Source: Acetobacter aceti NBRC 14818
Lineage (GTDB): Bacteria > Pseudomonadota > Alphaproteobacteria > Acetobacterales > Acetobacteraceae
Assembly (NCBI RefSeq): GCF_000193495.2
Contig: NZ_AP023410.1
Coordinates: forward strand, 2,999,501-3,063,500
Reading direction: 5' to 3'
DNA: 64,000 bases
Part shown: piece by piece, positions 35,579-53,414 of the stretch
Layout: every line of letters begins with the position of its first letter
Numbering within the stretch: position 1 is the first letter of the stretch
Made by a program: the position numbers and the translations under genes
The notes under the pieces: generated by a model
Told to the model about the DNA's origin: nothing
Seen by the model: only the letters and a program-made list of their open reading frames with translations
Databases searched by the model: none

Positions 35579-35592
35579 ATCAGATAAAAAAC

Positions 35593-37399: not shown

Positions 37400-37415
37400 T
37401 TGCCGGACTCGCCCC
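37400..37415. repeat. 16-bp motif TTGCCGGACTCGCCCC, first copy
   Basis: An identical 16-base copy lies at 38025-38040. Each copy sits between the starts of a leftward gene and a rightward gene, together with a CCTCCCG ribosome-binding-site segment. Confidence 0.7.
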
Positions 37416-37460
37416 GTCGCTCCCATCATTGCGGCGTCCAAACCAGCAATAAGAGAACCC

Positions 37461-37995: not shown

Positions 37996-38024
37996 GCGTC
38001 ACCTCCCGCATCCGGGACGAGCCC

Positions 38025-38040
38025 TTGCCGGACTCGCCCC
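38025..38040. repeat. 16-bp motif TTGCCGGACTCGCCCC, second copy
   Basis: Identical to 37400-37415, in the same position relative to a pair of divergent starts (37995 on the reverse strand, 38086 on the forward strand). Confidence 0.7.
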
Positions 38041-38085
38041 GGCTCATCCACCATGGGGCTGTCACACACAACCATGGAGGAACCC

Positions 38086-38352
38086 GTGACCAATACTGGA
38101 AATATCAATTCTGATACTGAGTCATACATGACGATCAACAGTCTGGAAATTAAACAGGATGGTCTTTTCTGGATCGCAACAGGCCAGTTCATTTGCGAGG
38201 CGGAAATTGATCAAGACTTTCGTCTAGATGGGTCTTTCGCAGTGCGTCTGAATACCCTTCCAGCCAAGCCTCCAATCGAGACTCATGATTTTCTGAGGAA
38301 GAAAATTCTAGAGCAGCTGATACAATCTTTAGAAGGCAATCCAGCTCTCTGA
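38086..38352 (+). CDS. Second counter-oriented prophage gene, unknown protein
   Basis: 88 residues from GTG 38086, with GGAGGAA six bases upstream. The translation (TINSLEIKQDGLFWIATGQF, then ICEAEIDQDFRLDGSFAVRL) looks like a genuine beta-rich fold. It lies opposite the early operon and its 3' end overlaps the reverse gene 38189-38527 by 164 bases. Base composition is more AT-rich than the neighbours. Function unknown. Confidence 0.5.
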   Translation: MTNTGNINSDTESYMTINSLEIKQDGLFWIATGQFICEAEIDQDFRLDGSFAVRLNTLPAKPPIETHDFLRKKILEQLIQSLEGNPAL

Positions 38353-38527
38353 CCGAAAGACTGACGGTGTCAGCGTTGCCTGTCTTCACACTGCGCCACG
38401 CATCCAGACTGCCGTCAGTTTTTTTGACGACTGTGATGCCGCCTATTCTGATCTGTTTTAATTTGTCACTTCCCACAGCCTGAACAGTAGGAACAAGGCG
38501 ATCATTGGCGTTTACTGTATAAGTCAT
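38189..38527 (-). CDS. Prophage early-region protein, unknown
   Basis: 112 residues (MTYTVNANDRLVPTVQAVGSD...). The ribosome-binding site CTGGAGAAT lies before ATG 38527. The first ~70 residues look beta-rich, the rest helical and acidic. The C-terminal half is antisense to the forward gene 38086-38352. No family recognised. Confidence 0.55.
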   Translation of the reverse strand: MTYTVNANDRLVPTVQAVGSDKLKQIRIGGITVVKKTDGSLDAWRSVKTGNADTVSLSVRELDCLLKIVSAALEFSSSENHESRLEAWLEGYSDALRKTHLDESLDQFPPRK

Positions 38528-38586
38528 CTCTATTCTCCAGTATCGTTATTGTTTTATTGTCTATTTCTCGGGCGGAATTTTTCCGC

Positions 38587-38787
38587 TTACTCACCGCTCA
38601 GGACGTCGGAAGAGCGCCGCCGGAACACACCGCCACACGCCCGCGCCGCATCAATCCGGCTGCGTCTGTGCATGGCAGCAGCACTGCTCAGATCACCCAT
38701 CAGAACCGATGACAGACCGGCGGCGACACCAATCGCCAGACCGCCCAGACCTGACGCAATGCAGTAAAACATCGGATCACCCATCAT
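38587..38787 (-). CDS. Small Gly/Ala-rich prophage membrane protein
   Basis: 66 residues; MMGDPMFYCIASGLGGLAIG begins a hydrophobic segment, followed by an Arg-rich tail. The start overlaps the stop of the previous gene (ATGA at 38784-38787). Too small to assign. Confidence 0.45.
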   Translation of the reverse strand: MMGDPMFYCIASGLGGLAIGVAAGLSSVLMGDLSSAAAMHRRSRIDAARACGGVFRRRSSDVLSGE

Positions 38788-39251
38788 CCCGGCACCCCCC
38801 GATAGGCTGCACGCCGCAGGGACGCCGCCATTTTTGAAAGTTCACGCTGTTTCAACTGCGTTTCCGCCAGAGTGATCATCGGCAACAATCGCCGGTCCAC
38901 CACAGCCAGGCCGTGCGGCGCAGCGATAAACTCCAGAAGTCTCTGATCGCCTGTCGCACCCAGCAGCGCATCGAAACGCGGCACCGAGATCACATGCGTG
39001 TCGCGCGTCGGTGAGGCATAGGCGTTCAGAATGTTCACGCTGATATGCCGGTCCATCCGACGACTCATGCTGTCCGCAACCTGCTCCCGCGACCGACCGC
39101 ACTCCGCCAGCGCAATCGAAACCGCACGGGCCAGACGCACATCAAACGAGTTCGAACGCATCAGCGCAGGATCGAACGCCGCGACAGGAGAGGGCGGAAC
39201 CCAGTCCAGCAGAGACATCTGCGCCACTGCATCAATCCGAGCCCCTTTCAT
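38784..39251 (-). CDS. Prophage early-region regulator-like protein
   Basis: 155 residues from ATG 39251 (MKGARIDAVAQMSLLDWVPP). A middle stretch (RAVSIALAECGRSREQVADSMSRRMDRHIS) resembles a helix-turn-helix with a following VNILNAYASPTRD loop. The start overlaps the upstream stop (ATGA), as do its neighbours, giving a chain of coupled early genes. DNA binding is inferred only. Confidence 0.6.
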   Translation of the reverse strand: MKGARIDAVAQMSLLDWVPPSPVAAFDPALMRSNSFDVRLARAVSIALAECGRSREQVADSMSRRMDRHISVNILNAYASPTRDTHVISVPRFDALLGATGDQRLLEFIAAPHGLAVVDRRLLPMITLAETQLKQRELSKMAASLRRAAYRGVPG

Positions 39252-39532
39252 TGCGCATCTCCGCGCCACAGACGGATGGCGTGCGCCATCAGAAAATCGG
39301 TGCAGCCAATCGCCTCTCCGACTGTCATGATGTTTTCCAGCGTTATGCCTTTTCCGGTCGTCTCCATTCGGGAGAGCATCTGCTGAGAGATCCCTGTGGC
39401 GCGGGAGACATGACTCATGCGCAGACCGTTCTGTTTCCGGAAACTGCGGAGAGCTGAGCCCATCCCTGATCGAAACGTGGCGCGTTGACCGCAGCGCGCA
39501 TCCCGCATCTGCGTCGCAAAAATCCCGTTCAT
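39248..39532 (-). CDS. Small XRE-type helix-turn-helix protein
   Basis: 94 residues from ATG 39532, which overlaps the stop of the next-upstream gene (ATGA). LRSFRKQNGLRMSHVSRATG and ISQQMLSRMETTGKGITLEN form a clear XRE/Cro-like HTH. Probably a second transcription switch of the prophage early region. It is the second of two HTH genes in tandem. Confidence 0.7.
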   Translation of the reverse strand: MNGIFATQMRDARCGQRATFRSGMGSALRSFRKQNGLRMSHVSRATGISQQMLSRMETTGKGITLENIMTVGEAIGCTDFLMAHAIRLWRGDAQ

Positions 39533-39810
39533 GCCGCAGCGACAGCGCGCAACCGCATGTCCACCCACAGGAGATCAGTGAAAAACTTAGATGCAGCAAC
39601 AGCATCCACGTCATAGAAGTAGAGCAGGTCCAGAATAGTGCTCAGGCGAGGCATATTCTCACCACGCTCTATCCGCCCCAGTCGGCTGGATGAAAAATTC
39701 AGTGCAGCATCAACCTCGCGCACGCGCAGTCCGGCGAGTTCACGAAACTCACGCAGCCTGAGTCCGACATGCGCAGAGACTTTCCTTGGATCAACATGAT
39801 CGGTCATCAC
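39529..39810 (-). CDS. Small XRE-type helix-turn-helix protein
   Basis: 93 residues. VGLRLREFRELAGLRVREVD followed by AALNFSSSRLGRIERGENMP is a canonical HTH with the usual Arg-Ile-Glu-Arg-Gly end. Its start overlaps the ParB-like gene stop (ATGA at 39807-39810). Likely an early-gene regulator. Confidence 0.72.
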   Translation of the reverse strand: MMTDHVDPRKVSAHVGLRLREFRELAGLRVREVDAALNFSSSRLGRIERGENMPRLSTILDLLYFYDVDAVAASKFFTDLLWVDMRLRAVAAA

Positions 39811-40637
39811 GCTGCCTCCAGAATCTGGTCACGAGTGATAAGCCCCGCCGTCACCAGTTCATCCAGAAACACCCGACGCGCAGGCGCTTCCATTTTCAGA
39901 ACTCGCGCAGCCTCTTTGCGGCCAAGCACCAGCCACTTCTCTTCATTGGCGACCGGAGCCACGTTTTCAGAGGCCAGCTCGGACGGCTTCTTGTCTTCCG
40001 CCAGCGCTTTCTTGACCCGCTCGACCTGCAGCCCCGGCTCTTTGATGCTGCCGATAAACAGAAGCTCGGACCGGTCATTTGCTAGCGTTGTGCCCTGCAA
40101 AGCCCGGACAGTTTCCGGCTGAAGGTTTCGATACAGCGAGACATAGCCATGCACGGTGCGCTCACTGACGCCCATGCGGGCGGCGGCATCGACAGCAAAG
40201 CGCGGTAAGCAGTTTGCAACCGTTGCAAACTGGTCGGAAACGCGATCTCCGCCATTCCTTGTCTCAGGGTAAAGCCTGAGATAAAGTTCCTTGCGTTCGA
40301 ACAGGCTTCGGGCACGCGACAGGATATCTAATTCCTGGCGGATCAGGTTCTCGTCGATTTCCTTCAGCCGAGCCTGATCCGCGTTCAGCTTCGAAACGGA
40401 AGCCGAAACCTCATTCCATCCAGCTAGATGCGCTGCAGCCAGACGATGGCCGCCCGCGACCAGAATATACTTGGGAGAGCCTTCCGCGCCGGTGCCGTAG
40501 CGCACCTCAATCGGGGTGTCCTGACCGCGCTCGATAAAGCTCTGCGCGATGATCTCAACATACCCTTCATTGACCGGCCGGATGCGGTCGTTCGTGCGCG
40601 GATCAATGTCCGCGAGAGCGATTTTCTTGACGTTCAC
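39807..40637 (-). CDS. ParB/Spo0J-like nuclease-fold protein of the prophage
   Basis: 276 residues. The N-terminal ParB/Srx domain has the VEIIAQSFIERGQDTPIEVR block and VAGGHRLAAAHLAGW (the GxxR-type box). An HTH segment (AARMGVSERTVHGYVSLYRN) follows at ~150-175. ParB-like proteins are seen in the early region of several Mu-like phages, where they may aid replication or partition; the true role is unproved. The start overlaps the Ner-like gene stop. Confidence 0.78.
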   Translation of the reverse strand: MNVKKIALADIDPRTNDRIRPVNEGYVEIIAQSFIERGQDTPIEVRYGTGAEGSPKYILVAGGHRLAAAHLAGWNEVSASVSKLNADQARLKEIDENLIRQELDILSRARSLFERKELYLRLYPETRNGGDRVSDQFATVANCLPRFAVDAAARMGVSERTVHGYVSLYRNLQPETVRALQGTTLANDRSELLFIGSIKEPGLQVERVKKALAEDKKPSELASENVAPVANEEKWLVLGRKEAARVLKMEAPARRVFLDELVTAGLITRDQILEAA

Positions 40638-40939
40638 GCCGCTGCTCCTTTTGCACGCAGATCAGCAGGGACTTTCCGGGTAGGTGTCCTGTCAGCAACA
40701 CGCGAAACAGGAGAGCCATCAGCATGATACCGGTCCGGCCAGACGTCGTAGGGCTCGCGCTCCAGCAGCTCCGCCACCTTCTTCTCACCGGCAATGGAGT
40801 AATCCGGACGGGAAATGATGTTGCTGATCGCGTTCTTGCCCATCCCGATCTGCTCGGACACGCTGGACAGGGAGCCGTAGCGCTTCCTGATCTCGGCCTT
40901 GATATCCTCGGGGTGCATCCCGCATGGCTTTCGTGCCAT
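40634..40939 (-). CDS. ner: Ner-like DNA-binding protein
   Basis: 101 residues from ATG 40939 (MARKPCGMHPEDIKAEIRKR). YGSLSSVSEQIGMGKNAISN, then IISRPDYSIAGEKKVAELLE, matches the Nlp/Ner/SfsB helix-turn-helix family, in which Ner turns down Mu early transcription. It is the first leftward gene, divergent from the repressor, exactly as in Mu. GAGGATT precedes the start; GTG 40945 is an alternative. The C-terminal ~35 residues are an added basic tail. Confidence 0.8.
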   Translation of the reverse strand: MARKPCGMHPEDIKAEIRKRYGSLSSVSEQIGMGKNAISNIISRPDYSIAGEKKVAELLEREPYDVWPDRYHADGSPVSRVADRTPTRKVPADLRAKGAAA

Positions 40940-41045
40940 ACTCACAATCCTCCTCTCCGAGAGTCGGCCCTCTGGCCGACTCTCTTTTTTCCCAACATGA
41001 CGGGGGTTCTGTCCCCGTCATCTCACCGGAGATTGTCACCAATAT

Positions 41046-41143
41046 TGCCAATCAGCAACCACAAACGGGCATTTCCTACCTAAAAAATCCGTAATGTTGT
41101 GGATAAATGGCAATTTCCGTTATCTGGACTTGATAAATGGCAA
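41046..41143. promoter_or_regulatory. Candidate operator repeats between repressor and ner
   Basis: GATAAATGGCAA occurs twice (41102-41113 and 41132-41143), 30 bases apart. The second copy covers the repressor start codon. TTGCCA in the opposite sense lies near 41047. The region is AT-rich and holds both divergent promoters, so these are likely sites for the repressor or the Ner-like protein. Confidence 0.5.
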
Positions 41144-41895
41144 ATGAATCGGGAAATGAAGGCGGAAACGCAAATTTCCAACCTGACGCTGAGGATGCCG
41201 CAATATCTGAGCGCGCAGAGCGTCTACAGCAGGCCGTTCAGCTAGCTGGCGGAAATACAAAAGTTGCCATTCGTGCACAAATGCCGTTGAGCACGCTTAG
41301 CCGCTATCTTGCGGGTAGAGATATGAAGGCAAGCGCTATGATTGCGCTTGCTAGAGCCTGTGATGTTTCGTTGGACTGGCTAGCCGACGGCTCAGGAAAT
41401 AGGCACACAGATGCCATAGTTTCCGACCGCTTCGCCGCAACAGACTGTGGCGATAATTCTATTCCTGTAAGTTATTTCAAAGCGGAACCGTCTGCTGGAA
41501 CTGGATGCGTTCCAGATGAATGGGATGGTGGAGAAGTATTCCACGTATCAAAAGAGTTTCTTAACAATGTATTGGGCGTTTACCACCGCTCTCTGTTCTT
41601 TGTGAGAGTGCAGGGTGACAGCATGATGCCAACACTGAACCCCGGCGATACCATTCTCGTGGACTATACACCCGAACAGATCATGGAGTCAGTCTATGTC
41701 GTCTCGGTGCAGGGAATGCTCATGGTCAAGCGGCTGTCCGTAAAGGACCCCCTCACATTCAGCCTGGTCAGCGATAATGAGCGCTATAAACCCTTCGACA
41801 TCCAGATGACTCGCACCAGCTGGGCCAACGCCTCCACAGACGCCGATCTCCGCATCATCGGACGCGTCGTGGGCCGCTTCCACATAAACGTCTAA
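41137..41895 (+). CDS. Prophage repressor, HTH plus S24 (LexA-like) peptidase
   Basis: 252 residues. The N-terminal HTH (TKVAIRAQMPLSTLSRYLAG, residues ~41-60) is followed by a C-terminal S24 domain. The latter has S162 in VQGDSMMPTL and K198 in MLMVKRL, the Ser-Lys pair for RecA-stimulated self-cleavage. It probably keeps the prophage silent and would be inactivated by DNA damage. That is unlike Mu c, which lacks this domain. It is the only rightward gene at this end. The ATG overlaps an operator-like repeat, suggesting autoregulation. Confidence 0.87.
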   Translation: MANESGNEGGNANFQPDAEDAAISERAERLQQAVQLAGGNTKVAIRAQMPLSTLSRYLAGRDMKASAMIALARACDVSLDWLADGSGNRHTDAIVSDRFAATDCGDNSIPVSYFKAEPSAGTGCVPDEWDGGEVFHVSKEFLNNVLGVYHRSLFFVRVQGDSMMPTLNPGDTILVDYTPEQIMESVYVVSVQGMLMVKRLSVKDPLTFSLVSDNERYKPFDIQMTRTSWANASTDADLRIIGRVVGRFHINV

Positions 41896-41918: not shown

Positions 41919-42154
41919 CACTCGCCAAGCGCCGCCATCAGATCGCAGCGCAATGTCCGGAACCATCTGTCCAATCCCGACAAAACGGCTCCTCACGTTC
42001 AAAACCTTATGTCTTTCGACATCCCGTCAGGCTCTGTGTATAATGTGTGGATAAATTCTCACGGACCTCAATTTTTCCGCCGACAACCGCCGACTAAAAA
42101 TTTTCCATCCCACGTGGTCCCCGATTGTCCCCCGGAATCCCACTCTGTCCGATA

Positions 42155-42163
42155 CCTTGTGTC
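42155..42163 (-). repeat. End motif GACACAAGG, repressor-side prophage end
   Basis: Inward-facing copy of the motif at 30439-30447. Two more GGGGAC boxes lie just inside it (near 42118 and 42130 on the reverse strand), which may be further transposase-binding sites. Confidence 0.45.
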
Positions 42164-42171
42164 CCCTGACA

Positions 42172-42275
42172 TCTGGCGTTCAGAAAGCAAAAACACGTTA
42201 CTCACAGACTTTTTCCCAGCGGTAGGCCTGTGAATCACAACAACAAGCTCAGCTCAATGAATTAACAGGTCCTGA
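42172..42275 (-). mobile_element. Right part of the IS5-family element (copy 2)
   Basis: Starts with TCTGG, the second copy of the prophage target duplication. It continues with a sequence alignable to copy 1 (shared GGCCTGTGAATCACAAC and AATTAACAG) and ends CCTGA at 42275. Together with 29962-30408 it restores one IS5-family element interrupted by the prophage. Confidence 0.8.
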
Positions 42276-42757
42276 GCCTGGAATAGACGTCGTGGTAACG
42301 TTGGGTAGACGTGCCTGTGGAGTCATCCAAGGTTTTAGAACTCATTGTGAAATATGAAGATAGTTCTGAGTCTCTCTGACGGTTGTAACCTCAGGCATAT
42401 TCATATGTTCGAGGTAGAAAACTGCCATTGGTTTGTGCTGCATAGCTCTGGGTCAGGTGGAACCCATGCACACAGGCGCTTTAATGGCATCTCGTCGGTT
42501 CAATTGCTGTAATGATCGGGCAAGGCTGTATCGCCTATGATAATGTGTACTTCTTTTTCACCAAAAGGACGGTTCACCTGCTTCAGGAGACTGTCGCATC
42601 TGGGTCTGCACGATATTCAATCCTGTAAAATTCAATCCAGTGAAAATTTCATCTGAAAGAAACGGCACAAAATCATATACTTAGTGTGTACAGAACTTTT
42701 TTATTGCATGAAGGGAACATTTTTATGTTGCAACCAAACGAGTTACGTCAGAGAATG
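42276..42757. other. Leader region upstream of the guanidine/urea operon, no gene
   Basis: About 480 bases, AT-rich towards 42600-42750. I looked for ykkC-type (guanidine-I) and mini-ykkC motifs and found none. No confident -35/-10 or sigma-54 pair can be called. Confidence 0.4.
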
Positions 42758-42787
42758 AGTAATACGATTTAGCTTAGTCGTATTACT
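42758..42787 (+). promoter_or_regulatory. NikR-like operator palindrome overlapping the ribosome-binding site
   Basis: AGTAATACGA (42758-42767) and TCGTATTACT (42778-42787) are perfect inverted 10-mers separated by 10 bases. Trimmed by one base at each side this is GTAATA-N16-TATTAC, the same half-site length and spacing as the E. coli NikR operator GTATGA-N16-TCATAC. The right arm touches the GGAGG of the first gene. It may be the operator for the NikR-like protein encoded at 45693; it could also fold as an mRNA hairpin. Confidence 0.6.
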
Positions 42788-42798
42788 GGAGGCTGACC

Positions 42799-43782
42799 AT
42801 GCACCTGCTCTCGCTTCTTCGGAAAACCTTGTTGACTGGCGTCTGTGCCGCGGCGGCGCTCACTTCCGCTTCCGCCGCGACACTGAAGATCGGCTACAGT
42901 GACTGGCCTGGCTGGGTCGCCTGGCAGGTGGCCATCGACAAGGGGTGGCTGAAGGACGCGGGGGTCGACGCCGATTTCCAGTGGTTCGATTACAGCGCTT
43001 CACTTGACGCATTTTCAGCCCATAAACTCGATGCTGTCATGGCGACGAATGGCGATGCATTGGTCACGGGAGCGAATGGGCATAAAGGGGAAATGATCCT
43101 CGCCACTGATTACTCCGACGGCAATGATATGGTGGTGGCCCAGCCCGGCATCACTGACATGAAGGACCTCAAGGGCAAATCCGTCGCAGTTGAGGAGGGG
43201 CTGGTCGACCATCTCCTTCTGCTCACAGGTCTGGAAAAAGCAGGTCTCAGCGAGAAGGATGTCAAACTGGTCAACACCAAGACCAATGAAACGCCGCAGG
43301 TGCTCGCGTCCGGCGAAGTGGCCGCTATCGCGGCCTGGCAGCCAAATGCCGGTCAGGCTCTGCATATGGTGCCCGGTTCCCGCCCCATATTCACTTCTCA
43401 TGAAGCGCCGGGCCTGGTCTATGACACCATCGTCGTGGATCCGCAGTCCCTTCATGACAACCGTGACCAGTGGCAGAAGCTGGTTGGTGTCTGGGATCAT
43501 GTTGTCTCCTACATCAAGGATCCGAAAACCCAGCCTGATGCGTTGCGTATCATGGCGACACGGACAGGTGTTGCTCCCGAAGCTTACAAGCGTTTTCTCA
43601 AGGGAACGCATCTGCTGACGGTATCTGACGACAAGGCGGTCTTCACAAAGAAAGAAGGCCTGAGCTCGCTCTATGGTTCTTCGTCCGTCTCTGATTCCTT
43701 CAATGTTCGCTATAGCGTCTATAAGACTCCGCAAAATGTGGACAGCTATATCGATCCGTCTTTCGTAGCGGCCGTGAAATAG
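42799..43782 (+). CDS. ABC transporter substrate-binding protein (NMT1/TauA-like), guanidine/urea operon
   Basis: 327 residues. The signal peptide is ~1-27 (LLTGVCAAAALTSASA, then ATLKIGY). The mature part is an NMT1/SsuA-type binding fold with LKIGYSDWPGWVAWQVAIDKGW at the start, LDAVMATNGDALV, and LKGKSVAVEEGLVDHLLLLTG. Such proteins deliver small amines or sulfonates to the ABC pump. In operons with a carboxylase of this type the ligand is thought to be guanidine or urea. It is the first gene of the operon; GGAGG ends seven bases before the ATG and overlaps the palindrome at 42758-42787. Confidence 0.82.
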   Translation: MHLLSLLRKTLLTGVCAAAALTSASAATLKIGYSDWPGWVAWQVAIDKGWLKDAGVDADFQWFDYSASLDAFSAHKLDAVMATNGDALVTGANGHKGEMILATDYSDGNDMVVAQPGITDMKDLKGKSVAVEEGLVDHLLLLTGLEKAGLSEKDVKLVNTKTNETPQVLASGEVAAIAAWQPNAGQALHMVPGSRPIFTSHEAPGLVYDTIVVDPQSLHDNRDQWQKLVGVWDHVVSYIKDPKTQPDALRIMATRTGVAPEAYKRFLKGTHLLTVSDDKAVFTKKEGLSSLYGSSSVSDSFNVRYSVYKTPQNVDSYIDPSFVAAVK

Positions 43783-43804
43783 CGCTGAGGCAGGAGAAAC
43801 CGCC

Positions 43805-44770
43805 ATGCAGGGCCTTGCCGCTTCATGGAAATTATACGGTCGGACTGACGGAGTATCCCGTGGGGTCTTCGGTGTTCTGGCGGTGCTGCTGCCCTTGCTG
43901 GTCTGGAGCGCTGTCAGTTACCTGCCGTTTGTATGGCATCCACAGGTGCTCATCACCGATCCGGGTGGTGAGGATTATCTGGAATCAGGCATGCGGATGA
44001 ACCGCGCTGATTTCAGTCGTGCCGTGACTGAGATGCAGGCAAAAAATGAGCCTGTTCCGCAAGGTATTGCGGCAAATCCTGTCTATCTTCCGTCTCCGGG
44101 CGAGGTGCTGACGGCTTTTGTCCACGCCTTCACGTCTTCGGCTCCCACGGGGGCTGAACACTCCATCACGCAGGCTTTCGGGCACAGTATCCAGATCATT
44201 TTCTGGGGTTTTCTTATCTCTTCCCTGATCGGCGTGCCATTGGGTGTGATGTGCGGTGCTTTGCCTGGTCTGGCGCGGCTTGTTGAACCCTCAGTGGATT
44301 TCTTCCGTTATCTGCCCGCGCCTGCTTTCGGTGCGCTCGCTGTCGCCATTCTGGGTATATATGACGCGCCAAAAATCGCGATCATCGTTATTGGTACGCT
44401 GTTTCAGCAGATTCTTGTGATTGCCAACACCACACGCAAGCTGGATTTCGCGTTGATCGAAGCATCCCGCACGCTTGGAGCGAAAGGGTTGAAGCTGCTT
44501 TTTCGGGTGGTGATACCGGGCATTCTGCCGGATATCTATCGTGATCAGCGTATTCTGCTGGGCTGGGCCTGGACGTATCTGATCGTGGCCGAGTTGATCG
44601 GCACATCTTCCGGTATCACATGGTTCATCACACAGCAGGCGCGCTACCAGCATTTTGATAATGTCTATGCAGCGATGGCTATCATCGGAATAGCAGGCCT
44701 TGGCACCGATATGGTTCTCGGTCTGCTGGGACGCCGGTTCTTTGCTTGGAAAAGGGAGATCGACGGATGA
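43805..44770 (+). CDS. ABC transporter permease, guanidine/urea operon
   Basis: 321 residues with about six membrane helices and an extended N-terminal periplasmic segment (~45-120). The EAA loop that contacts the ATPase is at EASRTLGAKGLKLLFRVVIPGILPDI. This is the SsuC/TauC type of binding-protein-dependent permease. It begins 22 bases after the binding protein and its stop overlaps the ATPase start (ATGA). Confidence 0.87.
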   Translation: MQGLAASWKLYGRTDGVSRGVFGVLAVLLPLLVWSAVSYLPFVWHPQVLITDPGGEDYLESGMRMNRADFSRAVTEMQAKNEPVPQGIAANPVYLPSPGEVLTAFVHAFTSSAPTGAEHSITQAFGHSIQIIFWGFLISSLIGVPLGVMCGALPGLARLVEPSVDFFRYLPAPAFGALAVAILGIYDAPKIAIIVIGTLFQQILVIANTTRKLDFALIEASRTLGAKGLKLLFRVVIPGILPDIYRDQRILLGWAWTYLIVAELIGTSSGITWFITQQARYQHFDNVYAAMAIIGIAGLGTDMVLGLLGRRFFAWKREIDG

Positions 44771-45681
44771 CCGAACATCAGCTTCCTGACTATCGCACGC
44801 TTCCAGCCGATGTTGCCGAACGCATGGAGCAGATCAAACAGCGTGACTGTGTGCTGGAAATTGACCATGTCGGAAAGGTCTTCGCACAAAAGCGCCATCA
44901 GACTGTGGCGCTTGAAGACATCGAATTCGGCGTTCACCGACGGGAATTTGTCTGCGTCGTAGGTCCGTCGGGCTGCGGTAAATCGACGTTGATCCGCATT
45001 CTGGCCGGACTTGAGGAGACAACCACAGGCCGTATCCTCGTGGATGGGAAACCTGTGAACGGGCCGGGTCCGGATCGCGGCATGGTGTTTCAGAAATACA
45101 CCCTGTTTCCCTGGCTGGATGTCTGTCGCAACGTCATGTTCGGCATAGAAATGGGTGGTACCGAACGGGCTGAAGCACGTCGGCAGGCCATGCAATGGCT
45201 ACAGGTTGTGGGACTGGAACATTTCGCCACTTCCTTTCCGCATCAGCTTTCCGGCGGCATGCAGCAGCGCGTGGCCATTGCCCGTGCGCTGGCCGCCCGC
45301 CCTCGCGTTTTGCTGATGGATGAATCTTTCAGTGCACTGGACGCCGAGACCCGGCTGAAAATGCAGAACTATCTGATGGAGATCTGGCGCAAGATCGACA
45401 TCACCATCGTCTTCATCACGCATGATCTGGATGAAGCCATTTATCTGGCTGACCGGATTCTTGTGCTGAAACCCCGTCCAGGCAGGGTGGAAGAGGTCAT
45501 TGAAGTGCCGCTGTCCCGTCCACGTCGGGCAGCGCAGATGATGTCCGACGAATTCCTTGCGACCAAAGCCCATCTGGAGGGGCTGATCCGTTCTTTTGGT
45601 GATAACGCCGAAGAAACGGATGAGGGAGCGGATGATTTCACCATGCCGCTCCTTACCCTCGTCACGGACAAGGCTGAGTAG
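44767..45681 (+). CDS. ABC transporter ATPase, guanidine/urea operon
   Basis: 304 residues. Walker A GPSGCGKST, signature LSGGMQQRVAIARAL, Walker B VLLMDESFSALD (Ser in place of the common Pro) and THD switch histidine are all intact. It has ~35 extra residues at the N-terminus and ~55 at the C-terminus compared with the SsuB/TauB core. I took ATG 44767, which overlaps the permease stop. It powers uptake by the two preceding gene products. Confidence 0.9.
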   Translation: MTEHQLPDYRTLPADVAERMEQIKQRDCVLEIDHVGKVFAQKRHQTVALEDIEFGVHRREFVCVVGPSGCGKSTLIRILAGLEETTTGRILVDGKPVNGPGPDRGMVFQKYTLFPWLDVCRNVMFGIEMGGTERAEARRQAMQWLQVVGLEHFATSFPHQLSGGMQQRVAIARALAARPRVLLMDESFSALDAETRLKMQNYLMEIWRKIDITIVFITHDLDEAIYLADRILVLKPRPGRVEEVIEVPLSRPRRAAQMMSDEFLATKAHLEGLIRSFGDNAEETDEGADDFTMPLLTLVTDKAE

Positions 45682-45692
45682 GAATCGCGGCA

Positions 45693-46172
45693 GTGAGCAG
45701 TCGGGAAACAAAGGAACAGGTCAGTCGCGTCAGTATTTCCCTGCCGCCAGGCATCCTGCAGGAGCTGGACGCCATGGTCGCGGAGAAAGGCTACGCCAGC
45801 CGGTCGCAGGCCATTCAGAACATCCTGCATCAGGAACTGATGGCCTCGCGTAATGACTGCGCGGATGAGCTGATGGCCGGTGTCATCATTCTTTTCTACA
45901 ACAACGCGGCAACCGGTCTTTCCCAGAAACTTGCTGAGCTGCAATACGAAAATCTTGCCGAAGTCATCAGCTCCCTGCACGTCAACCTCGTGCGTCGCCA
46001 GACACTCGAGGTTCTTCTCGTTCAGGGGAAGGTAAAAAAACTTCAGGAAATTGCGGATCAGTTCATGACGCAGTCCGGTGTTATTTCCGGAAAGCTTCAC
46101 CTCATCGCGTCACTCATTCCACCGGTTCACGAGAAGGGGCGTTCCCCCACGCTCGACATAACGCCGTGCTGA
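45693..46172 (+). CDS. NikR-like ribbon-helix-helix regulator lacking the nickel site
   Basis: 159 residues from GTG 45693. Residues ~11-50 form a ribbon-helix-helix (SRVSISLPPGILQELDAMVA, then GYASRSQAIQNIL) and ~62-145 an ACT-like domain as in NikR. The alignment with E. coli NikR is gapless from the DNA-binding domain on. Nickel ligands His76, His89 and Cys95 correspond here to Y85, N98 and T104; only His87 is kept (H96). So it is a NikR homologue that should not bind nickel in the NikR way. Lying inside the operon, it probably senses a pathway compound and controls the operon via the palindrome at 42758-42787. The effector is unknown. Confidence 0.8.
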   Translation: MSSRETKEQVSRVSISLPPGILQELDAMVAEKGYASRSQAIQNILHQELMASRNDCADELMAGVIILFYNNAATGLSQKLAELQYENLAEVISSLHVNLVRRQTLEVLLVQGKVKKLQEIADQFMTQSGVISGKLHLIASLIPPVHEKGRSPTLDITPC

Positions 46173-46211
46173 ACGGCATTTTTCGGCTTACTCCATAAAA
46201 AGGAGCGTTTC

Positions 46212-47015
46212 ATGCAGATCGATCAACAGACACCCGAGTGGTATCGCGCCCGCTACAACCAGCTCCGCGATCAGGCCCTTCTCACTGAAAGTGCCACACG
46301 TCCTGCTTTTACGCCTATCGAGATGACTGAAAGCAGTGTGCTGCACCGTGAAACCATTCCGGGTGGTTGGTACTGGAGCACACTTCTGCCGCGCGGACAG
46401 GCGCTGCGCCTGATCAATACATCAGGCAATAACGGTGTTTCTGTCGGCTTGTGGAATGCGGACGACCTTAGCGAGCGCTATAATGTCGGTGACACCATCA
46501 AGCTGCAATGGACGACCTGTCTGACGACCGGTCGCGTTCTGTTCTCGGACATGGGGCGTGTGCTCGCTTCCATCATAGGTGATTCCTGCGGTTTCAGCGA
46601 CACGCTGGTAGGCGGGAGCACGCCGCAGAGCAACGCACGGAATTTCGGTAATGAGGGTCTGCGCAACACACGCAATAATCTGCGCCTGATCGCAGGCAAG
46701 CACGGCATGGCGCAGCATGACGTCACCTCCTGCATCACCTTCTTTTCGCATATCAGCACGCAGGCGGATGGCAGCTTCCGCTGGATCGAGGGTGATGTCC
46801 GGCCCGGTGACCATGTCGATCTGCGTGCGGAGATGAATCTTCTCGTCGCTGTCTCGAATTGTCCCCATCCTCTGGCTCCAGAGAAGAGCTTTGCGCCAGC
46901 ACCAATCGAGGCCGTGCGCTGGCAGGCTCCCGCCATCAAGCCGGATGATCTTTGCCGGACCTTCTGTGAAGAAGCCCGTCGTGGCTTCGAAAATACCGAC
47001 CCTCTCTTTGTCTGA
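46212..47015 (+). CDS. DUF1989 protein, carboxyguanidine deiminase subunit candidate
   Basis: 267 residues, DUF1989 (urea carboxylase-associated) family. Blocks are RGQALRLINTSGNNGVSVGLWNA, VLASIIGDSCGFSDTLVGG and VDLRAEMNLLVAVSNCPHPLAP. DUF1989 pairs beside this carboxylase were shown to form carboxyguanidine deiminase (CgdAB), turning carboxyguanidine into allophanate and ammonia. Compared with the next gene, the CSC pair after LxGA is replaced here by GST, so this subunit probably lacks part of a metal site. AAAAAGGAGCG precedes the ATG. Confidence 0.78.
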   Translation: MQIDQQTPEWYRARYNQLRDQALLTESATRPAFTPIEMTESSVLHRETIPGGWYWSTLLPRGQALRLINTSGNNGVSVGLWNADDLSERYNVGDTIKLQWTTCLTTGRVLFSDMGRVLASIIGDSCGFSDTLVGGSTPQSNARNFGNEGLRNTRNNLRLIAGKHGMAQHDVTSCITFFSHISTQADGSFRWIEGDVRPGDHVDLRAEMNLLVAVSNCPHPLAPEKSFAPAPIEAVRWQAPAIKPDDLCRTFCEEARRGFENTDPLFV

Positions 47016-47031
47016 TCCGGGAGTTCTATCG

Positions 47032-47676
47032 ATGCCAGAATACGATATCAGTAAGGTCTTCTCGACCATCACTCTCGATGAGGTCGTGGCTGCCCGGGTG
47101 CCCTGGTCCGGCGTGGTACGCAAGGGACAGGTCCTTCGCATCATCGATCTTGAAAGCCAGCAGGCGGTGGATGCCCTTTTCTACAACGCCCATGCCTATC
47201 AAGAGCGTTACAGCGCACAGGATACGCTTGTGAATCAGGGAGCCGCCTATATCGGCAAGGGTGGTCGGCTGTTTTCCAATGAGGGCAATGTTCTCATGAC
47301 TGTTGTAGAGGACACCTGCGGACGCCATGATACGCTGGCAGGAGCCTGCAGCTGTGAATCCAACACGGTGCGCTTCGGCCATGAAACAAAATACATGCAT
47401 GCATGCCGTGAGAACTTCCTTCTGGAAGTTGAAAAATACGGTATGAGCAAGCGGGATATCGTCAACAACGTCAATTTCTTCATGAATGTTCCCATCATGC
47501 AGAATGGCGAGCTGGTGATTGATGACGGCCTGTCTGCACCCGGCGGCTTTGTCGATCTGCGCGCCGAGATGGACACGCTCGTCGTGGTGTCGAACTGCCC
47601 GCAGGTCAACAATCCCTGCAACGGCTTCACACCCACTCCCATCCGCGTGGTCATCGGTGACCCCATCTCCATCTGA
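47032..47676 (+). CDS. DUF1989 protein, carboxyguanidine deiminase subunit candidate (Cys-rich site)
   Basis: 214 residues from ATG 47032 (MPEYDISKVFSTITLDEVV). It shares the DUF1989 blocks with the preceding gene (RKGQVLRIIDLESQQAVDAL, DLRAEMDTLVVVSNCPQ). Here EDTCGRHDTLAGACSCESN keeps several cysteines and a histidine that could hold a metal. It is probably the catalytic partner of the first DUF1989 protein. It starts 16 bases after it, and 18 bases before the carboxylase. The frame is open upstream to 46891, inside the other gene, which I reject as a start. Confidence 0.8.
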   Translation: MPEYDISKVFSTITLDEVVAARVPWSGVVRKGQVLRIIDLESQQAVDALFYNAHAYQERYSAQDTLVNQGAAYIGKGGRLFSNEGNVLMTVVEDTCGRHDTLAGACSCESNTVRFGHETKYMHACRENFLLEVEKYGMSKRDIVNNVNFFMNVPIMQNGELVIDDGLSAPGGFVDLRAEMDTLVVVSNCPQVNNPCNGFTPTPIRVVIGDPISI

Positions 47677-47694
47677 CCTATTGGAAGATCTGTC

Positions 47695-50600
47695 ATGTTC
47701 AGCAAGGTCCTCATCGCCAATCGTGGAGAAATTGTCCGGCGTGTCAGTCGGACTCTCCGGCACATGAATATTGCTTCCGTGGCTGTGTGCTCGGAAGCCG
47801 ATCGCTTTACGCCTCCCGTGCTGGAGGCCGATGAGTCGGTGCTGATCGGCCCGGCAGCGGTGACGGACAGTTATCTGAACATGGACGCCATTCTGGACGC
47901 TTGCGCCAGAACGGGGGCACAGGCTGTCCACCCCGGTTACGGTTTTCTCAGTGAACGGGCCGAATTTGCCGAAAAGCTGGCTGAACGTGGCATTCGCTTC
48001 ATGGGGCCGCGTCCGGAGCATATGCGGGCGTTCGGCCTCAAACATACCGCACGCGATCTGGCCAAGCAGAACAATGTGCCGCTTCTGCCGGGTTCCGATA
48101 TTCTCAGCACGGCTGATGAGGCCGCAGTCGAAGCGCAGCGCATCGGCTATCCTGTCATGCTCAAGAGCACGGCGGGCGGCGGCGGTATCGGCATGCAGGT
48201 CTGCCACAACGAAGCTGAACTGCGTGACTGCTTCGCCGCGGTTTCCCGTATGGGCGGCAACAACTTTGGTGATGCCCGCGTCTTTCTTGAAAAGTTCATT
48301 GCCTTCGCACGTCATGTCGAGGTGCAGATCTTTGGTGATGGAAAAGGCAACATTCTCACCCTGGGCGAACGTGACTGTTCTCTCCAGCGTCGCAATCAGA
48401 AGGTTATCGAAGAAACACCGGCTCCTGGCCTGTCGGACGCGACACGCAAGGGACTGCGTGAAGCCGCTCGTGCCCTGTGCTCCGCGGTTGCTTATGAATC
48501 CGCCGGCACGGTGGAGTTCATCTACGATACGGAAAGCGGTGAGTTCTATTTCCTTGAGGTGAATACACGCCTTCAGGTCGAACACTGCGTGACCGAGGAA
48601 GTGTTCGGGATCGACCTTGTCGAATGGATGGTGCGTCAGGCGGATGGCAGTCTGGTCCTGCCGCCACAGGACAGCCTGATCCCGCAGGGTGCCGCCGTGG
48701 AAGCCCGCGTCTATGCCGAGAACCCTGCGGAAAATTTCCGTCCTTCGACGGGGCGTCTGACTGAAGTGCAGTTCCCGTCCAATGTACGCGTGGATGGATG
48801 GATCGAGACCGGCACGGAAGTGACGCCTTATTACGATCCGATGCTGGCCAAGGTCATCGCACGGGGCGCCACGCGTGAAGAAGCCTTTCATAACCTCAAT
48901 GAAGCGCTGACGGCTACGCGCATCGGTGGTCTGGAGAGCAATCTCGATTACCTGCGTGCCATTACCGCAGCGCCTGCCGTGCTTGCCGGAGAGGTTTTTA
49001 CCGGCCTGCTCAACAGCTTTGCCTATACGCCGACGACAATCGAAGTCATTGCGCCGGGCCTTCAGTCCACAGTGCAGGACTGGCCGGGACGGATCGGCTA
49101 CTGGGATGTGGGCGTGCCCCCCAATGGTCCGATGGACGATCGCAGTTTCCGTCTGGCCAATCGCATTGTCGGCAATGCCGAGGGTGTGGCCGCTCTGGAG
49201 TTCACGGTTTCCGGTCCGGTTCTCCGTTTCAACGCTCCTGCCACCATTGGCCTGGCCGGAGCGTTCATGCCCGCGACACTGGATGGCAAAGAAATTCCTT
49301 ACTGGGAGCCGATCGAGGTAAAGGCCGGGCAGGTTCTGTCATTGGGGCAGATCAAGGGGGCGGGACATCGCACCTATCTCGCCATTCGTGGTGGCATTGA
49401 TGCGCCGCTTTATCTCGGATCGCGCTCGACTTTCATGCTCGGTCAGTTCGGTGGTCATGCAACCGGACAGTTGCGCACTGGCGATGTTCTGAGACTTGCC
49501 GCGCCTCTGGCTGATGCGCCTCCGACCACAACCATTTCGGTCGAAGATCGTCCGGCGCTGACGCAGACATGGGAACTGGGTGTGCTGTACGGTCCGCATG
49601 GTGCACCGGATTTCTTCCGTGACGAGGATATCGCTGAGCTGTTTTCCAGCGAATACGAGGTTCACTTCAACAGCGCCCGTACGGGTGTGCGTCTGATCGG
49701 ACCGAAGCCACGCTGGGCGCGTACGGACGGCGGTGAGGCCGGACTCCATCCTTCCAACATTCACGATAATGCCTACGCCATCGGCGCTATCGACTTTACC
49801 GGTGACATGCCGATTCTGCTGGGTCCTGACGGTCCGAGCTTGGGCGGTTTTGTCTGCCCGGCCGTGCTCACGCGCGATGAACTGTGGAAGATGGGACAGC
49901 TCCATCCGGGTGACAAGGTGCGTTTCCGTCGCGTGCAGCCTGAACTGCTGAATCTGCCATTCCTGACGGCTCCAGTGACCGGCGACAGTCCCATCCTGTT
50001 CCGTTCGGAAGGTGAAATTCCGGTCGTCTATCGTCGGGCAGGCGACAGTTATCTTCTGCTTGAATTCGGACCGCCGGAACTGGATGTGACGTTGCGTCTG
50101 CGCGCCCAGCTTGTGCTGGAGCGTCTGAAAATCGAAGCTGTGGACGGTATTATTGACCTCACGCCCGGCATCCGGTCTTTGCAGGTCCATTACAATCCCG
50201 ACGTCATCAGCCTGTCCGCTCTTCTGGAAATCCTGCACAATATCGAGCAGGCTCTCCCGTCAGGCGACGATGACATCGTGGTCCCCAGCCGTATCGTGTA
50301 CCTTCCAGTGTCCTGGGATGATGAGCAGGCGCGGCTGGCCATGCAGCGTTATCAGGAACTCGTGCGTCCAAACGCGCCATGGTGCCCCTCCAACATTGAG
50401 TTCATCCGTCGCATCAACGGACTGCCCTCGATTGATGCCGTCAAGGATATCATCTTTAACGCCTCTTACCTCGTGATGGGGCTGGGTGATGTCTATCTCG
50501 GTGCGCCTGTCGCTACTCCGATCGATCCGCGCCACAGGCTCGTAACAACCAAATACAATCCGGCCCGTACATGGACACCTGACAACGTGGTGGGCATTGG

Positions 50601-51234
50601 TGGCAGCTATATGTGCATCTACGGCATGGAAGGGCCGGGAGGATATCAGCTTTTTGGCCGCACCACACAGGTCTGGAACACATGGCGCACAACGGATGTG
50701 TTCCATGAAGGCACGCCGTGGCTTCTCAGGTTTTTCGATCAGATCCGTTTCTACCCTGTCTCACATGACGAACTGATGGAGGCTCGCGCCGCTTTCCCGT
50801 ATGGCCGTTTCTCTGTGAAGATCGAGGATACGCAGTTCAGTCTGAGGGAATATCGCGCTTTTCTCGAGGCCAACAAGGACGAGATCGAAGCGGCCCGCAA
50901 TCGTCAGCAGGCGGCCTTTGAGGCTGAACGGCAGGACTGGATTGCCAAAGGTCTCGATACGTTCGAGGAAGAGACGAACGATAATCAGGCTGATGAATCC
51001 CTTCTCCCCGAAGGTCACATGGGCGTGGACAGCCCGGTGCCCGGCAGCGTGTGGCAGCTTCCCGTTAATGTGGGCGACCATGTGAAAGTGGGGGACACTG
51101 TCGCCATCATTGAATCCATGAAGACCGAGATGAAGATCATCTCGCCTGCAACCGGAGTCATTACGGACATTCTCTGCCGCAAGGGGCGGGAGGTGCGTGG
51201 CGGCGAACGCATCATGGTTGTGCGCACAGACTGA
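47695..51234 (+). CDS. Biotin-dependent urea/guanidine carboxylase
   Basis: 1179 residues. Domains: biotin carboxylase (~1-450; MLKSTAGGGGIGMQ ATP-grasp loop, EVNTRLQVEHCVTEEVFGID), carboxyltransferase of AHS2 then AHS1 type (~450-1000; STVQDWPGRIGYWDVGVP, RHRLVTTKYNPARTWTP, GGSYMCIYGMEGPGGYQL), and a C-terminal biotin carrier domain with biotinylated K1143 in IESMKTEMK. It adds CO2 to urea, giving allophanate, or to guanidine, giving carboxyguanidine. The two DUF1989 genes beside it favour guanidine. The specificity residue was not assigned. Allophanate hydrolase follows as a separate gene, unlike the fused yeast enzyme. Confidence 0.9.
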   Translation: MFSKVLIANRGEIVRRVSRTLRHMNIASVAVCSEADRFTPPVLEADESVLIGPAAVTDSYLNMDAILDACARTGAQAVHPGYGFLSERAEFAEKLAERGIRFMGPRPEHMRAFGLKHTARDLAKQNNVPLLPGSDILSTADEAAVEAQRIGYPVMLKSTAGGGGIGMQVCHNEAELRDCFAAVSRMGGNNFGDARVFLEKFIAFARHVEVQIFGDGKGNILTLGERDCSLQRRNQKVIEETPAPGLSDATRKGLREAARALCSAVAYESAGTVEFIYDTESGEFYFLEVNTRLQVEHCVTEEVFGIDLVEWMVRQADGSLVLPPQDSLIPQGAAVEARVYAENPAENFRPSTGRLTEVQFPSNVRVDGWIETGTEVTPYYDPMLAKVIARGATREEAFHNLNEALTATRIGGLESNLDYLRAITAAPAVLAGEVFTGLLNSFAYTPTTIEVIAPGLQSTVQDWPGRIGYWDVGVPPNGPMDDRSFRLANRIVGNAEGVAALEFTVSGPVLRFNAPATIGLAGAFMPATLDGKEIPYWEPIEVKAGQVLSLGQIKGAGHRTYLAIRGGIDAPLYLGSRSTFMLGQFGGHATGQLRTGDVLRLAAPLADAPPTTTISVEDRPALTQTWELGVLYGPHGAPDFFRDEDIAELFSSEYEVHFNSARTGVRLIGPKPRWARTDGGEAGLHPSNIHDNAYAIGAIDFTGDMPILLGPDGPSLGGFVCPAVLTRDELWKMGQLHPGDKVRFRRVQPELLNLPFLTAPVTGDSPILFRSEGEIPVVYRRAGDSYLLLEFGPPELDVTLRLRAQLVLERLKIEAVDGIIDLTPGIRSLQVHYNPDVISLSALLEILHNIEQALPSGDDDIVVPSRIVYLPVSWDDEQARLAMQRYQELVRPNAPWCPSNIEFIRRINGLPSIDAVKDIIFNASYLVMGLGDVYLGAPVATPIDPRHRLVTTKYNPARTWTPDNVVGIGGSYMCIYGMEGPGGYQLFGRTTQVWNTWRTTDVFHEGTPWLLRFFDQIRFYPVSHDELMEARAAFPYGRFSVKIEDTQFSLREYRAFLEANKDEIEAARNRQQAAFEAERQDWIAKGLDTFEEETNDNQADESLLPEGHMGVDSPVPGSVWQLPVNVGDHVKVGDTVAIIESMKTEMKIISPATGVITDILCRKGREVRGGERIMVVRTD

Positions 51235-51275
51235 TACTTCCGAACAATCCGACGCTGACAGAACAGGAAAAAATC

Positions 51276-53078
51276 ATGACCCTGCCAAACATGTTGCAGA
51301 TAGCGCCCCTGCTTTCCGCCTGTCGCGCCGGAACGCTGATGCCCACAGACATCGTGCGGGAAGTTGCCGCACGTGTTGATGCCTATGCCGCCAAGGATCC
51401 GGCGGTCTGGATCAGTCGTGTGCCAATGGAGCGGCTTCTGGCTCGTGCCGCTGAACTGGAGAGGCTGCCTGCGGCTGACTTGCCGCTTTACGGTATCCCG
51501 TTTGCAGTAAAGGATAATATTGACGTCGCCGGTCTGCCGACGACGGCAGCCTGTCCGGCCTTTGCCTATGAGCCTCGGGAAAGCGCTGAAGTGATCAAAC
51601 GGCTGGAAGCAGCCGGAGCCATTGTCATCGGCAAGACCAATCTGGATCAGTTCGCAACAGGACTTGTTGGAATGCGCTCGCCCTATGGCCAACCACATTG
51701 CGTGTTCAATGCGGACTATGTCTCGGGCGGTTCAAGCTCCGGTTCTGCTGTGGCTGTGGCGGCCGGGCTGGTGTCGTTTTCTCTGGGAACGGATACGGCA
51801 GGATCAGGCCGTGTTCCCGCAGCGTTCAACAACATCGTTGGTCTCAAGCCTTCGAGAGGCGTCCTCAGTACTTATGGTCTTGTGCCAGCGTGTGAATCCC
51901 TTGACTGTATCTCTGTTTTTGCAGGATCAACGACCGACGCATGGGAAGTTGAACAGGTGGCTGGTGCTGCAGATGCGCGGGCTCCTTTCTCGCGAACCTT
52001 CTCGCCACGTTCGCTGCCGCTCACGACATTCCGTTTCGGGGTTCTGTCGGCAGAAGATCGCTTTTTTGATGGTAACGAAGCCAATGCTGCTCTTTATGCT
52101 CAGGCCATAAAGCGCCTCGAACAGCTTGGAGGCACGCCTGTCGAGCTGGATTTTGCACCTCTGAAAGAAACGGCGGCGTTACTCTATAGCGGTCCCTTCG
52201 TTGTGGAACGTCTCGCAGCGATTAAGGATTTTTATCATGCGCATCGCAAGGATATGGATCCGACAGTTGGAACCATCATCGATGGAGCCGCAAACTATAC
52301 GGCGACAGATGTTTTCGACGGGATCTATCGTCAGCATGCGTTGCAGCAGATTGCGCAGTGCATGTGGGATGATTTCGATGTCATGTTATTGCCGACCGCA
52401 CCGCGTATCGTCACGAAACAGGAAGTCATCGAGCAGCCCATTGCTGCCAACAGTCTGCTGGGCGCTTATACCAACTTCGTGAATCTGCTTGATATGGCGG
52501 CATGTGCCGTGCCGGCCGGTTTTGCACCCGACGGCCTGCCTTTCGGAGTGACGTTCATCGCACCAGCCTTCACTGATGAGGACCTTGCTGCTTTGGCCGG
52601 GCGTTTCCATGAGGCTCTGGGGGAAGCCATCGGGGCCGCACGCACCGAAAAGCCCGATATTTCAGCAAAACTGGAGATTTCATCTTCCGGTCGCGTGCTG
52701 CTGGCGGTGGTTGGGGCGCATCTGAAAGGTTTCCCATTGCATTGGCAGCTTGAAAAGGAGAATGCCGTTCTGCGGGAGACGACACGCACAGCGCCCTATT
52801 ACAGGCTTTTTGCCCTGCCTGACGCAACGCCGCCAAAGCCGGGTCTTGTAAGGGAGGCAGGCTTTACAGGCGCAGGCCTGGAAGTTGAAGTGTATGAGCT
52901 GGATGCCGCAGGTTTTGGACGGTTCGTCGCTTCCGTTCCGCAGCCAATGTCCATCGGACGCATCACGCTGGCGGATGGCAAGGAAGTCTGTGGTTTTCTG
53001 TGTAGCGAAGCCGTCGCCCGCAGTGGCACGGATATTACCGCGACTGGTGGCTGGCGTTCCTACATGCAGAAGAAGTGA
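51276..53078 (+). CDS. atzF: Allophanate hydrolase
   Basis: 600 residues. The N-terminal amidase-signature domain has K79 (PFAVKDNIDVAG), the GGSSSGS loop at ~151-157 and S177 (GTDTAGSGRV) as catalytic triad. The C-terminal ~130 residues are the second domain typical of bacterial allophanate hydrolases (LLAVVGAHLKGFPLHWQL, ending near EVCGFLCSEA). The enzyme turns allophanate into two ammonia and CO2, finishing the pathway begun by the carboxylase. It begins 41 bases after the carboxylase and closes the operon. The length matches the family. Confidence 0.92.
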   Translation: MTLPNMLQIAPLLSACRAGTLMPTDIVREVAARVDAYAAKDPAVWISRVPMERLLARAAELERLPAADLPLYGIPFAVKDNIDVAGLPTTAACPAFAYEPRESAEVIKRLEAAGAIVIGKTNLDQFATGLVGMRSPYGQPHCVFNADYVSGGSSSGSAVAVAAGLVSFSLGTDTAGSGRVPAAFNNIVGLKPSRGVLSTYGLVPACESLDCISVFAGSTTDAWEVEQVAGAADARAPFSRTFSPRSLPLTTFRFGVLSAEDRFFDGNEANAALYAQAIKRLEQLGGTPVELDFAPLKETAALLYSGPFVVERLAAIKDFYHAHRKDMDPTVGTIIDGAANYTATDVFDGIYRQHALQQIAQCMWDDFDVMLLPTAPRIVTKQEVIEQPIAANSLLGAYTNFVNLLDMAACAVPAGFAPDGLPFGVTFIAPAFTDEDLAALAGRFHEALGEAIGAARTEKPDISAKLEISSSGRVLLAVVGAHLKGFPLHWQLEKENAVLRETTRTAPYYRLFALPDATPPKPGLVREAGFTGAGLEVEVYELDAAGFGRFVASVPQPMSIGRITLADGKEVCGFLCSEAVARSGTDITATGGWRSYMQKK

Positions 53079-53414
53079 AGCATACAGTCGTTCCGGCAGG
53101 GTAGGGGCATCGCACGCTTTACCAGCCGAAAGATTACGTCGCAGGGGCAGGACCGTGGCTAACGGACTGCCTCTTTTCGTTTTTGCGGGAATGGCGAGCC
53201 TGTCATGGTTGTACGGTTCTCTACGCGCTGCTGGCTGTCTCCTTCATGCCTGATGTCTGTTTCCCTGATCCTTCGACAAGCCACCCTCAGAAAAACGGAC
53301 GTAGCGCCTCTGAAAGTCCTTGTTACGGTGTCAGAACAACGATGTTAGCTTCTTCATAGAGTCAGAATTAATCAGCTGACTGACAGGGTTTTCCTGCGGA
53401 GAGACATCGAAGCC
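53079..53414. other. Intergenic region between the two nitrogen clusters
   Basis: 336 bases with no gene. It probably holds the end of the guanidine operon and the promoter of the DUF1028 gene; no clear hairpin or known operator was seen. The part 53320-53380 is AT-rich. Confidence 0.4.

Follow-up and report, generated by a model that had tools for sequence, protein, structure and literature searches.

What does a NikR-type protein regulate, and in response to what, when it sits in a carboxylase operon and has lost most of its nickel ligands? This question is raised by one open reading frame in the window, by which we mean the whole stretch of 64,000 nucleotides from Acetobacter aceti NBRC 14818 that was analysed. 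A first-pass annotation, made from the letters alone, had described the protein as a NikR homologue without its nickel site, placed in a guanidine/urea carboxylase operon and rebuilt to sense something else. Our reading, to which we assign a probability of roughly 0.6, is that the protein is a dedicated regulator of its own guanidine uptake and carboxylation operon, that nickel would no longer be its signal, and that guanidine or an imported guanidino compound is its most likely ligand.

The frame encodes 159 amino acids from a GTG start, and its first residue aligns with Met in five orthologues from the same genus. Pfam profiles detected both domains of a NikR, RHH_1 with 20.8 bits (cut-off 20.5) and NikR_C with 74.1 bits (cut-off 22). 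When the window's own genome was searched with the NikR_C profile, this protein was the sole match. Two NCBIfam models were barely passed, PRK04460 with 106.1 (cut-off 105) and PRK02967 with 83.4 (cut-off 83); the scores for TIGR02793, PRK01002 and PRK00630 were below cut-off. Residues 11–137 match residues 2–128 of E. coli NikR (1q5v), 127 residues on each side, in agreement with the gap-free alignment reported at first pass; the alignment to P. horikoshii NikR (2bj1) is ungapped. The structure model, built from 38 sequences, had a mean pLDDT of 77.6 and a pTM of 0.55 and is a single chain with unreliable domain orientation. Its C-terminal domain superposes on solved NikR domains at about 1 Å (2y3y: 0.9 Å over 82 columns).

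According to excerpts of PMC7055735, the nickel ligands of E. coli NikR are His76, His87, His89 and Cys95, and Glu30 contributes to a potassium site where the two domains meet. In the 2bj1 alignment the four ligand positions are occupied by Tyr85, His96, Asn98 and Thr104. His87 is the only ligand kept, and the three substitutions given at first pass were confirmed. The potassium-site residues Glu30 and Asp34 are also changed, to Gln39 and Asn43.

Table 1. Features of the regulator locus, in window coordinates.
Feature	Coordinates	Strand	Basis or remark
Candidate operator, 28-bp palindrome GTAATACGA-N10-TCGTATTAC	42759–42786		12 bases 5′ of the first gene's ATG
ABC transporter substrate-binding protein (NMT1-like)	42799–43782	+	Profiles; resembles TIGR03427 "putative urea ABC transporter substrate-binding protein", below cut-off
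ABC transporter permease	43805–44770	+	ORF, profiles
ABC transporter ATPase	44767–45681	+	ORF, profiles
NikR-fold regulator without nickel site (Y85, H96, N98, T104)	45693–46172	+	ORF, Pfam/NCBIfam profiles, alignment, model
UAAP1, DUF1989	46212–47015	+	TIGR03425, 272.6 bits (cut-off 205.95)
UAAP2, DUF1989	47035–47676	+	TIGR03424, 329.6 bits (cut-off 284.7)
Biotin-dependent carboxylase	47695–51234	+	TIGR02712 "urea carboxylase", 1813 bits; Asp700
Allophanate hydrolase	51276–53078	+	TIGR02713, 768 bits (cut-off 511)

As shown in Table 1, eight genes are tightly spaced between 42799 and 53078, with the regulator between the transporter genes and UAAP1. UAAP1 and UAAP2 are presumably parts of carboxyguanidine deiminase. 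Residue 700 of the carboxylase is Asp, compared with Asn1330 in the urea amidolyase of K. lactis, the position to which we take the published Asp/Asn rule to refer. By that rule, as given in excerpts of a review (PMC12186494), Asp marks guanidine carboxylases and Asn marks urea carboxylases, so that Asp700 points to guanidine as the substrate. The same residue is Asp in 59 of the 59 related loci where it could be read; two surveyed genomes have an Asn-type carboxylase and no detected UAAP gene adjoining it. With an Asp-type carboxylase, two DUF1989 genes and an allophanate hydrolase, the operon is of the guanidine type. Directly downstream of the allophanate hydrolase gene, on the same strand, lies a DUF1028 protein (53415–54092, 210.9 bits). 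The upstream stretch at 31289–41895 is phage-like and looks like a Mu-type element with an adjoining IS. It holds a DDE-transposase-like frame (35616–36848, minus strand) and an IS3-type transposase frame (34688–35578, plus strand), both labelled by eye, the latter with an ALIL frameshift pseudoknot at 34646–34762. A weak ParB_N-like match, an HTH_35 protein and an S24-peptidase repressor are also found there.

One scan of genome contigs yielded at least 561 confirmed relatives, and the best 80 of these were used for counts. Cys95 is lost in all 80, His76 in 76 and His89 in 21, with His87 kept in 80; chance is excluded, because the ligand changes are conserved across the relatives. Ordinary NikRs from the same searches have HHHC in 28 of 28 cases. 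A tree of 123 rows, from which the four ligand columns had been removed, placed the 94 Cys-less rows, the window protein included, on one side of a branch with an SH-aLRT of 100, and the 28 ordinary NikRs and L009 on the other; it was made by a quick method from few columns, with ordinary NikRs taken from the window's phylum only. L009:1501–1917, on the ordinary side, has lost three ligands independently (HQQR) and is a separate case. The clade spans alpha-, beta- and gammaproteobacteria, three Verrucomicrobiota records and one Acidobacteriota record, several of them metagenome bins, and one genome of the window's genus (G295) encodes both an ordinary NikR and a clade protein. Three residues are invariant and specific to the clade, S93, S94 and Q111 (94/94 each), and E90 is present in 92 of 94 rows, a position with Leu or Ile in 26 of 28 ordinary NikRs. 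No published description of the clade was found in the PMC literature, a corpus that most subscription papers and all preprints lie outside, nor did searches of it return a paper joining NikR with guanidine carboxylase or with a guanidine riboswitch. Excerpts of PMC2667541 contain both NikR and urea carboxylase, in separate contexts.

The clade that shares the ligand loss is tied to carboxylase/DUF1989 operons, a comparison that the first-pass annotation had called for. Among the best 80 of at least 561 loci, 76 have one or more of the seven other operon genes near the regulator. The ABC transporter is present in 70 of these 80 loci (at 45% identity or more), UAAP1 in 65, UAAP2 in 65, the carboxylase in 62 and allophanate hydrolase in 47. 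In the remaining four (L081, L088, L091 and L101) no operon gene was found in the available locus DNA; contigs are often short, which makes such absences weak. On annotated plasmids of Novosphingobium and Asticcacaulis, where UAAP1, UAAP2 and the carboxylase adjoin it, the regulator is named "CopG family ribbon-helix-helix protein"; in an Acinetobacter locus it is named "transcriptional regulator". A NikR-fold clade with a lost nickel site and the guanidine operon as its target is well supported by sequence. Several loci carry a creatininase-family gene and a type III glutamine synthetase gene between transporter and regulator, recognised by profiles in L089 and L133 and by reading in L083 and L112. 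One clade member (L045:9828–10397, RHHT) lies away from operon genes, in a genome whose carboxylase is on another contig; it is possibly an intermediate state. In one Methylobacterium bin (L099), a urease alpha gene at 12244–13977 lies less than 4 kb from the regulator. It was named by eye from its sequence, and an Rfam match to the 5'ureB sRNA lies on the opposite strand.

The DNA named at first pass for a binding test holds the palindrome of Table 1, and this candidate operator before the operon proved to be real and conserved. The palindrome extends to 42758–42787 with one more flanking pair and is the sole site in the window at two mismatches or fewer. In most clade members the site reads GTATTAC-N14-GTAATAC, and in Acetobacter GTAATAC-N14-GTATTAC. 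At one mismatch or fewer in 1.39 Mb, the two forms gave 47 and 17 matches at spacer 14, against 0–4 for each other spacer from 6 to 21, some sites being counted twice, once for each form; no match appeared in five first-order Markov shuffles. Loci were testable when the binding-protein gene was present with at least 150 bases before it. In 60 of these 67 loci the site (two mismatches or fewer, within 200 bases) lies before that gene, 6–62 bases from the projected start. Among the misses, L077–L079 carry a site some 2 kb upstream of the regulator, close to the permease, and their binding-protein gene is downstream; the site in L131 and in L138 has two mismatches and fails the distance rule; in L129 and L146 no site was found. 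Genome-wide, a perfect site of the non-Acetobacter form occurs once in each of six clade genomes, always at the operon, and is absent from seven riboswitch-type genomes without the regulator. With one mismatch allowed, this form also turns up at scattered places outside the operon, in clade and riboswitch-type genomes alike. A sigma-70-like promoter at 42653–42681 was not used, as such matches are no commoner than in shuffles.

The E. coli NikR box is GTATGA-N16-TCATAC in excerpts of PMC7055735. Compared with this box, the clade's candidate operator has the same total length of 28 bp and the same ends, and its half-site shows a single-base difference in most clade members, GTATTAC versus GTATGAC. 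Among 32 ordinary-NikR loci (29 distinct), a GTATGAC-N14-GTCATAC-like site (two mismatches or fewer) was found in 6, and the clade form (one mismatch) in none. At position 14 of the protein, 91 of 94 clade rows have Ser, and 27 of 28 ordinary NikRs have Thr. L045 is the single clade member with Thr14, and a GTATGAC-type site precedes its gene, as in ordinary NikR loci. We take this position to be one that contacts DNA in E. coli NikR, and the pattern fits a ribbon that reads the half-site directly. Acinetobacter NCu2D-2 has three operator-like sites, each ahead of a guanidine-type operon: UAAP1-UAAP2-carboxylase, where the site has two mismatches; regulator-allophanate hydrolase-binding protein; and permease-ATPase-2OG oxygenase-hypothetical protein-SMR transporter. 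The SMR protein scored below the cut-offs of all 17 NCBIfam models that it matched, which are of drug-efflux types. Judged from sequence, control of the guanidine operon by the regulator is well supported.

The first-pass annotation had also suggested that such a protein, if it senses a compound of this pathway, stands in place of the guanidine riboswitches. For the window's own operon this fits. No Rfam family was found at 42000–53500 even at E 10 with lax filters, a rescan made because the scores of one other locus (L087) had disagreed between scans. The leader and the intergenic gaps thus gave no guanidine riboswitch, and neither guanidine-I nor guanidine-II was found in the whole genome. 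Both classes were also absent from 8 of 8 Acetobacter genomes, searched with stricter filters that scored part of the candidates, and two Acetobacter loci had no guanidine family at E 10. In a survey of 249 genomes drawn from the phylum, 29 had the carboxylase; guanidine-I was present in 22 of these, and guanidine-II in 22 (21 over the cut-off). The regulator (more than 200 bits) occurred in 4 of the 7 carboxylase genomes without guanidine-I versus 0 of the 22 with it (Fisher p 0.0015, which depends on four regulator genomes and ignores kinship). Five weaker regulator matches (76–94 bits), which either do not share a contig with the carboxylase or are separated from it by more than 400 kb, were taken for ordinary NikRs. 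Of the other three genomes without guanidine-I, two have an Asn-type carboxylase, and G868 has the Asp type with neither element found.

In the genomes of the relatives the claim did not stand as a general rule. Guanidine-I was over the cut-off in 11 of 49 (12 at E 0.001). L104 and L125 carry it immediately upstream of UAAP1, next to the regulator's operon and on the other strand; in L080, L082, L083 and L134 the regulator's operon has no carboxylase, and the carboxylase lies elsewhere behind guanidine-I. Guanidine-II was found in 20 of 49 genomes at E 0.001 (15 over the cut-off), and 18 of the 20 candidates fall within the regulator locus, where 14 precede the carboxylase gene and 4 precede UAAP1; 13 of the 18 are over the cut-off and 5 below. 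On a rescan of 15 of these 18 loci, 12 reached the gathering score; L109 and L118, below the cut-off earlier, gave no guanidine-II. We are unsure of the candidate in L087, which scored 34.0 bits in one search and 20.2 bits on a closer scan and was missed by the first Rfam scan. With guanidine-II candidates in the same operons, simple replacement of riboswitches was dropped as a general rule.

Could the protein still sense a metal through altered or weaker ligands? We consider this very improbable, although several residues speak for it: His87 is kept in 93 of 93 clade rows, His89 in 62, Met stands at the Cys position in 18, and H146 is kept in 83 of 90. The ligand positions show 24 patterns in the 93 rows, and some clade members could still bind metal, which counts against a guanidine sensor; the urease near the regulator in L099 is a nickel enzyme. 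However, no three ligand-capable residues at the four positions are common to the clade. Rows from Novosphingobium and Asticcacaulis keep His87 alone (S/A/V/G/L-H-F-S), yet they too have the operon and a similar operator. At position 39, the equivalent of Glu30 in the potassium site, 89 of 94 clade rows have Gln, whereas ordinary NikRs have Glu in 28 of 28; at position 43, Asp or Glu is still present in 66 of 94. A urease alpha gene was seen in just 1 of the best 80 of at least 561 loci, and to our knowledge the pathway genes need no nickel. H146 as a substitute ligand was dropped, since some rows from Novosphingobium and Acinetobacter have a different residue at this position. We also set aside a nickel regulator of a nickel-free urea route, as the ligands are lost clade-wide and the carboxylase is of the guanidine type.

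It is improbable, too, that the protein takes no small-molecule ligand and sets expression as a constitutive or autoregulatory DNA-binding protein, with guanidine-II or nitrogen control doing the sensing. The variation at the site residues would agree with this, and the guanidine-II candidates downstream in 18 of 49 loci could do the sensing of guanidine, another point against a protein sensor. Against it, Acetobacter would be left without any guanidine sensor, and the C-terminal domain keeps the clade-specific residues given above. Unlikely, in our view, but deserving more weight is a regulator of the operon that responds to another ligand, either a related guanidino compound of the methylguanidine or creatinine type or an intermediate such as carboxyguanidine, allophanate or urea. 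Many relatives have the creatininase-family and type III glutamine synthetase genes in the operon, and the 2OG oxygenase and its neighbour in Acinetobacter resemble a pair, a dioxygenase and a neighbouring "hypothetical protein", that according to excerpts of PMC12508155 demethylates methylguanidine in riboswitch-controlled guanidine carboxylase operons. Asp700 in 59 of 59 carboxylases and the guanidine-II candidates in the same operons point instead to guanidine itself. The intermediates are disfavoured by Methylobacillus arboreus (G1099, 100% complete), which has the regulator, the operator and the transporter and no carboxylase over the cut-off, its TIGR02712 match being partial and of the biotin-carboxylase type. 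Because of this genome, carboxyguanidine and allophanate are less likely signals, which argues for an imported compound. The creatininase-family and type III glutamine synthetase set is present in M. arboreus.

Guanidine as the ligand of the regulator is plausible, and it is the candidate that fits best. The guanidine-I riboswitches in 11 of the 49 genomes of relatives count against our reading, as do the four of the best 80 loci in which no operon gene was found. The regulator would bind the 28-bp palindrome just before the first gene, and because the site lies close before the start codon it is most likely a repressor. Nickel-bound NikR represses when loaded. For catabolic genes such as these, ligand binding is expected to free the operator, so an inverted allosteric logic would be required: the protein would hold the DNA when unloaded and leave it when loaded, the reverse of nickel-bound NikR. 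The signal of the rebuilt C-terminal domain is most likely guanidine or a guanidino compound imported by the transporter, and the operon would be switched on when its substrate is present. Candidates for a guanidinium site are the clade-specific E90, S93, S94 and Q111 together with the kept Y69, Q84, H96 and E106.

Compared with known systems, the protein matches NikR of E. coli (1q5v, 2hza), P. horikoshii (2bj1) and H. pylori (2ca9) over its full length, with ribbon-helix-helix and NikR_C domains, and its candidate operator has the 28-bp length. Unlike NikR, it lacks three of the four nickel ligands and both carboxylates of the potassium site, and its target is a guanidine operon rather than nickel uptake. 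The guanidine-I riboswitch (ykkC, RF00442), an RNA that binds guanidine directly, is found elsewhere close to operons of this type, upstream of importer or UAAP genes; in the survey it and the regulator did not share a carboxylase genome, yet it is present in some genomes of the relatives. The guanidine-II riboswitch (mini-ykkC, RF01068) works at the level of the mRNA, within the operon or next to it, where its candidates precede carboxylase or UAAP1 genes.

At even odds, we propose that the clade as a whole consists of guanidine-sensing transcription factors, in which a NikR fold has had its cation site rebuilt for guanidinium, replacing guanidine-I at operon heads across several phyla and standing beside guanidine-II in many. 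The window protein passes two NCBI name cut-offs for NikR, and such genes risk annotation as nickel regulators. The clade is a concrete candidate for a protein guanidine sensor, with a defined operator and at least 561 relatives, and the question of guanidine sensing becomes testable with one protein and one DNA fragment. If the proposal is true, a metal-sensor fold would have changed its signal and kept its operator geometry, with one base per half-site changed in most of the clade.
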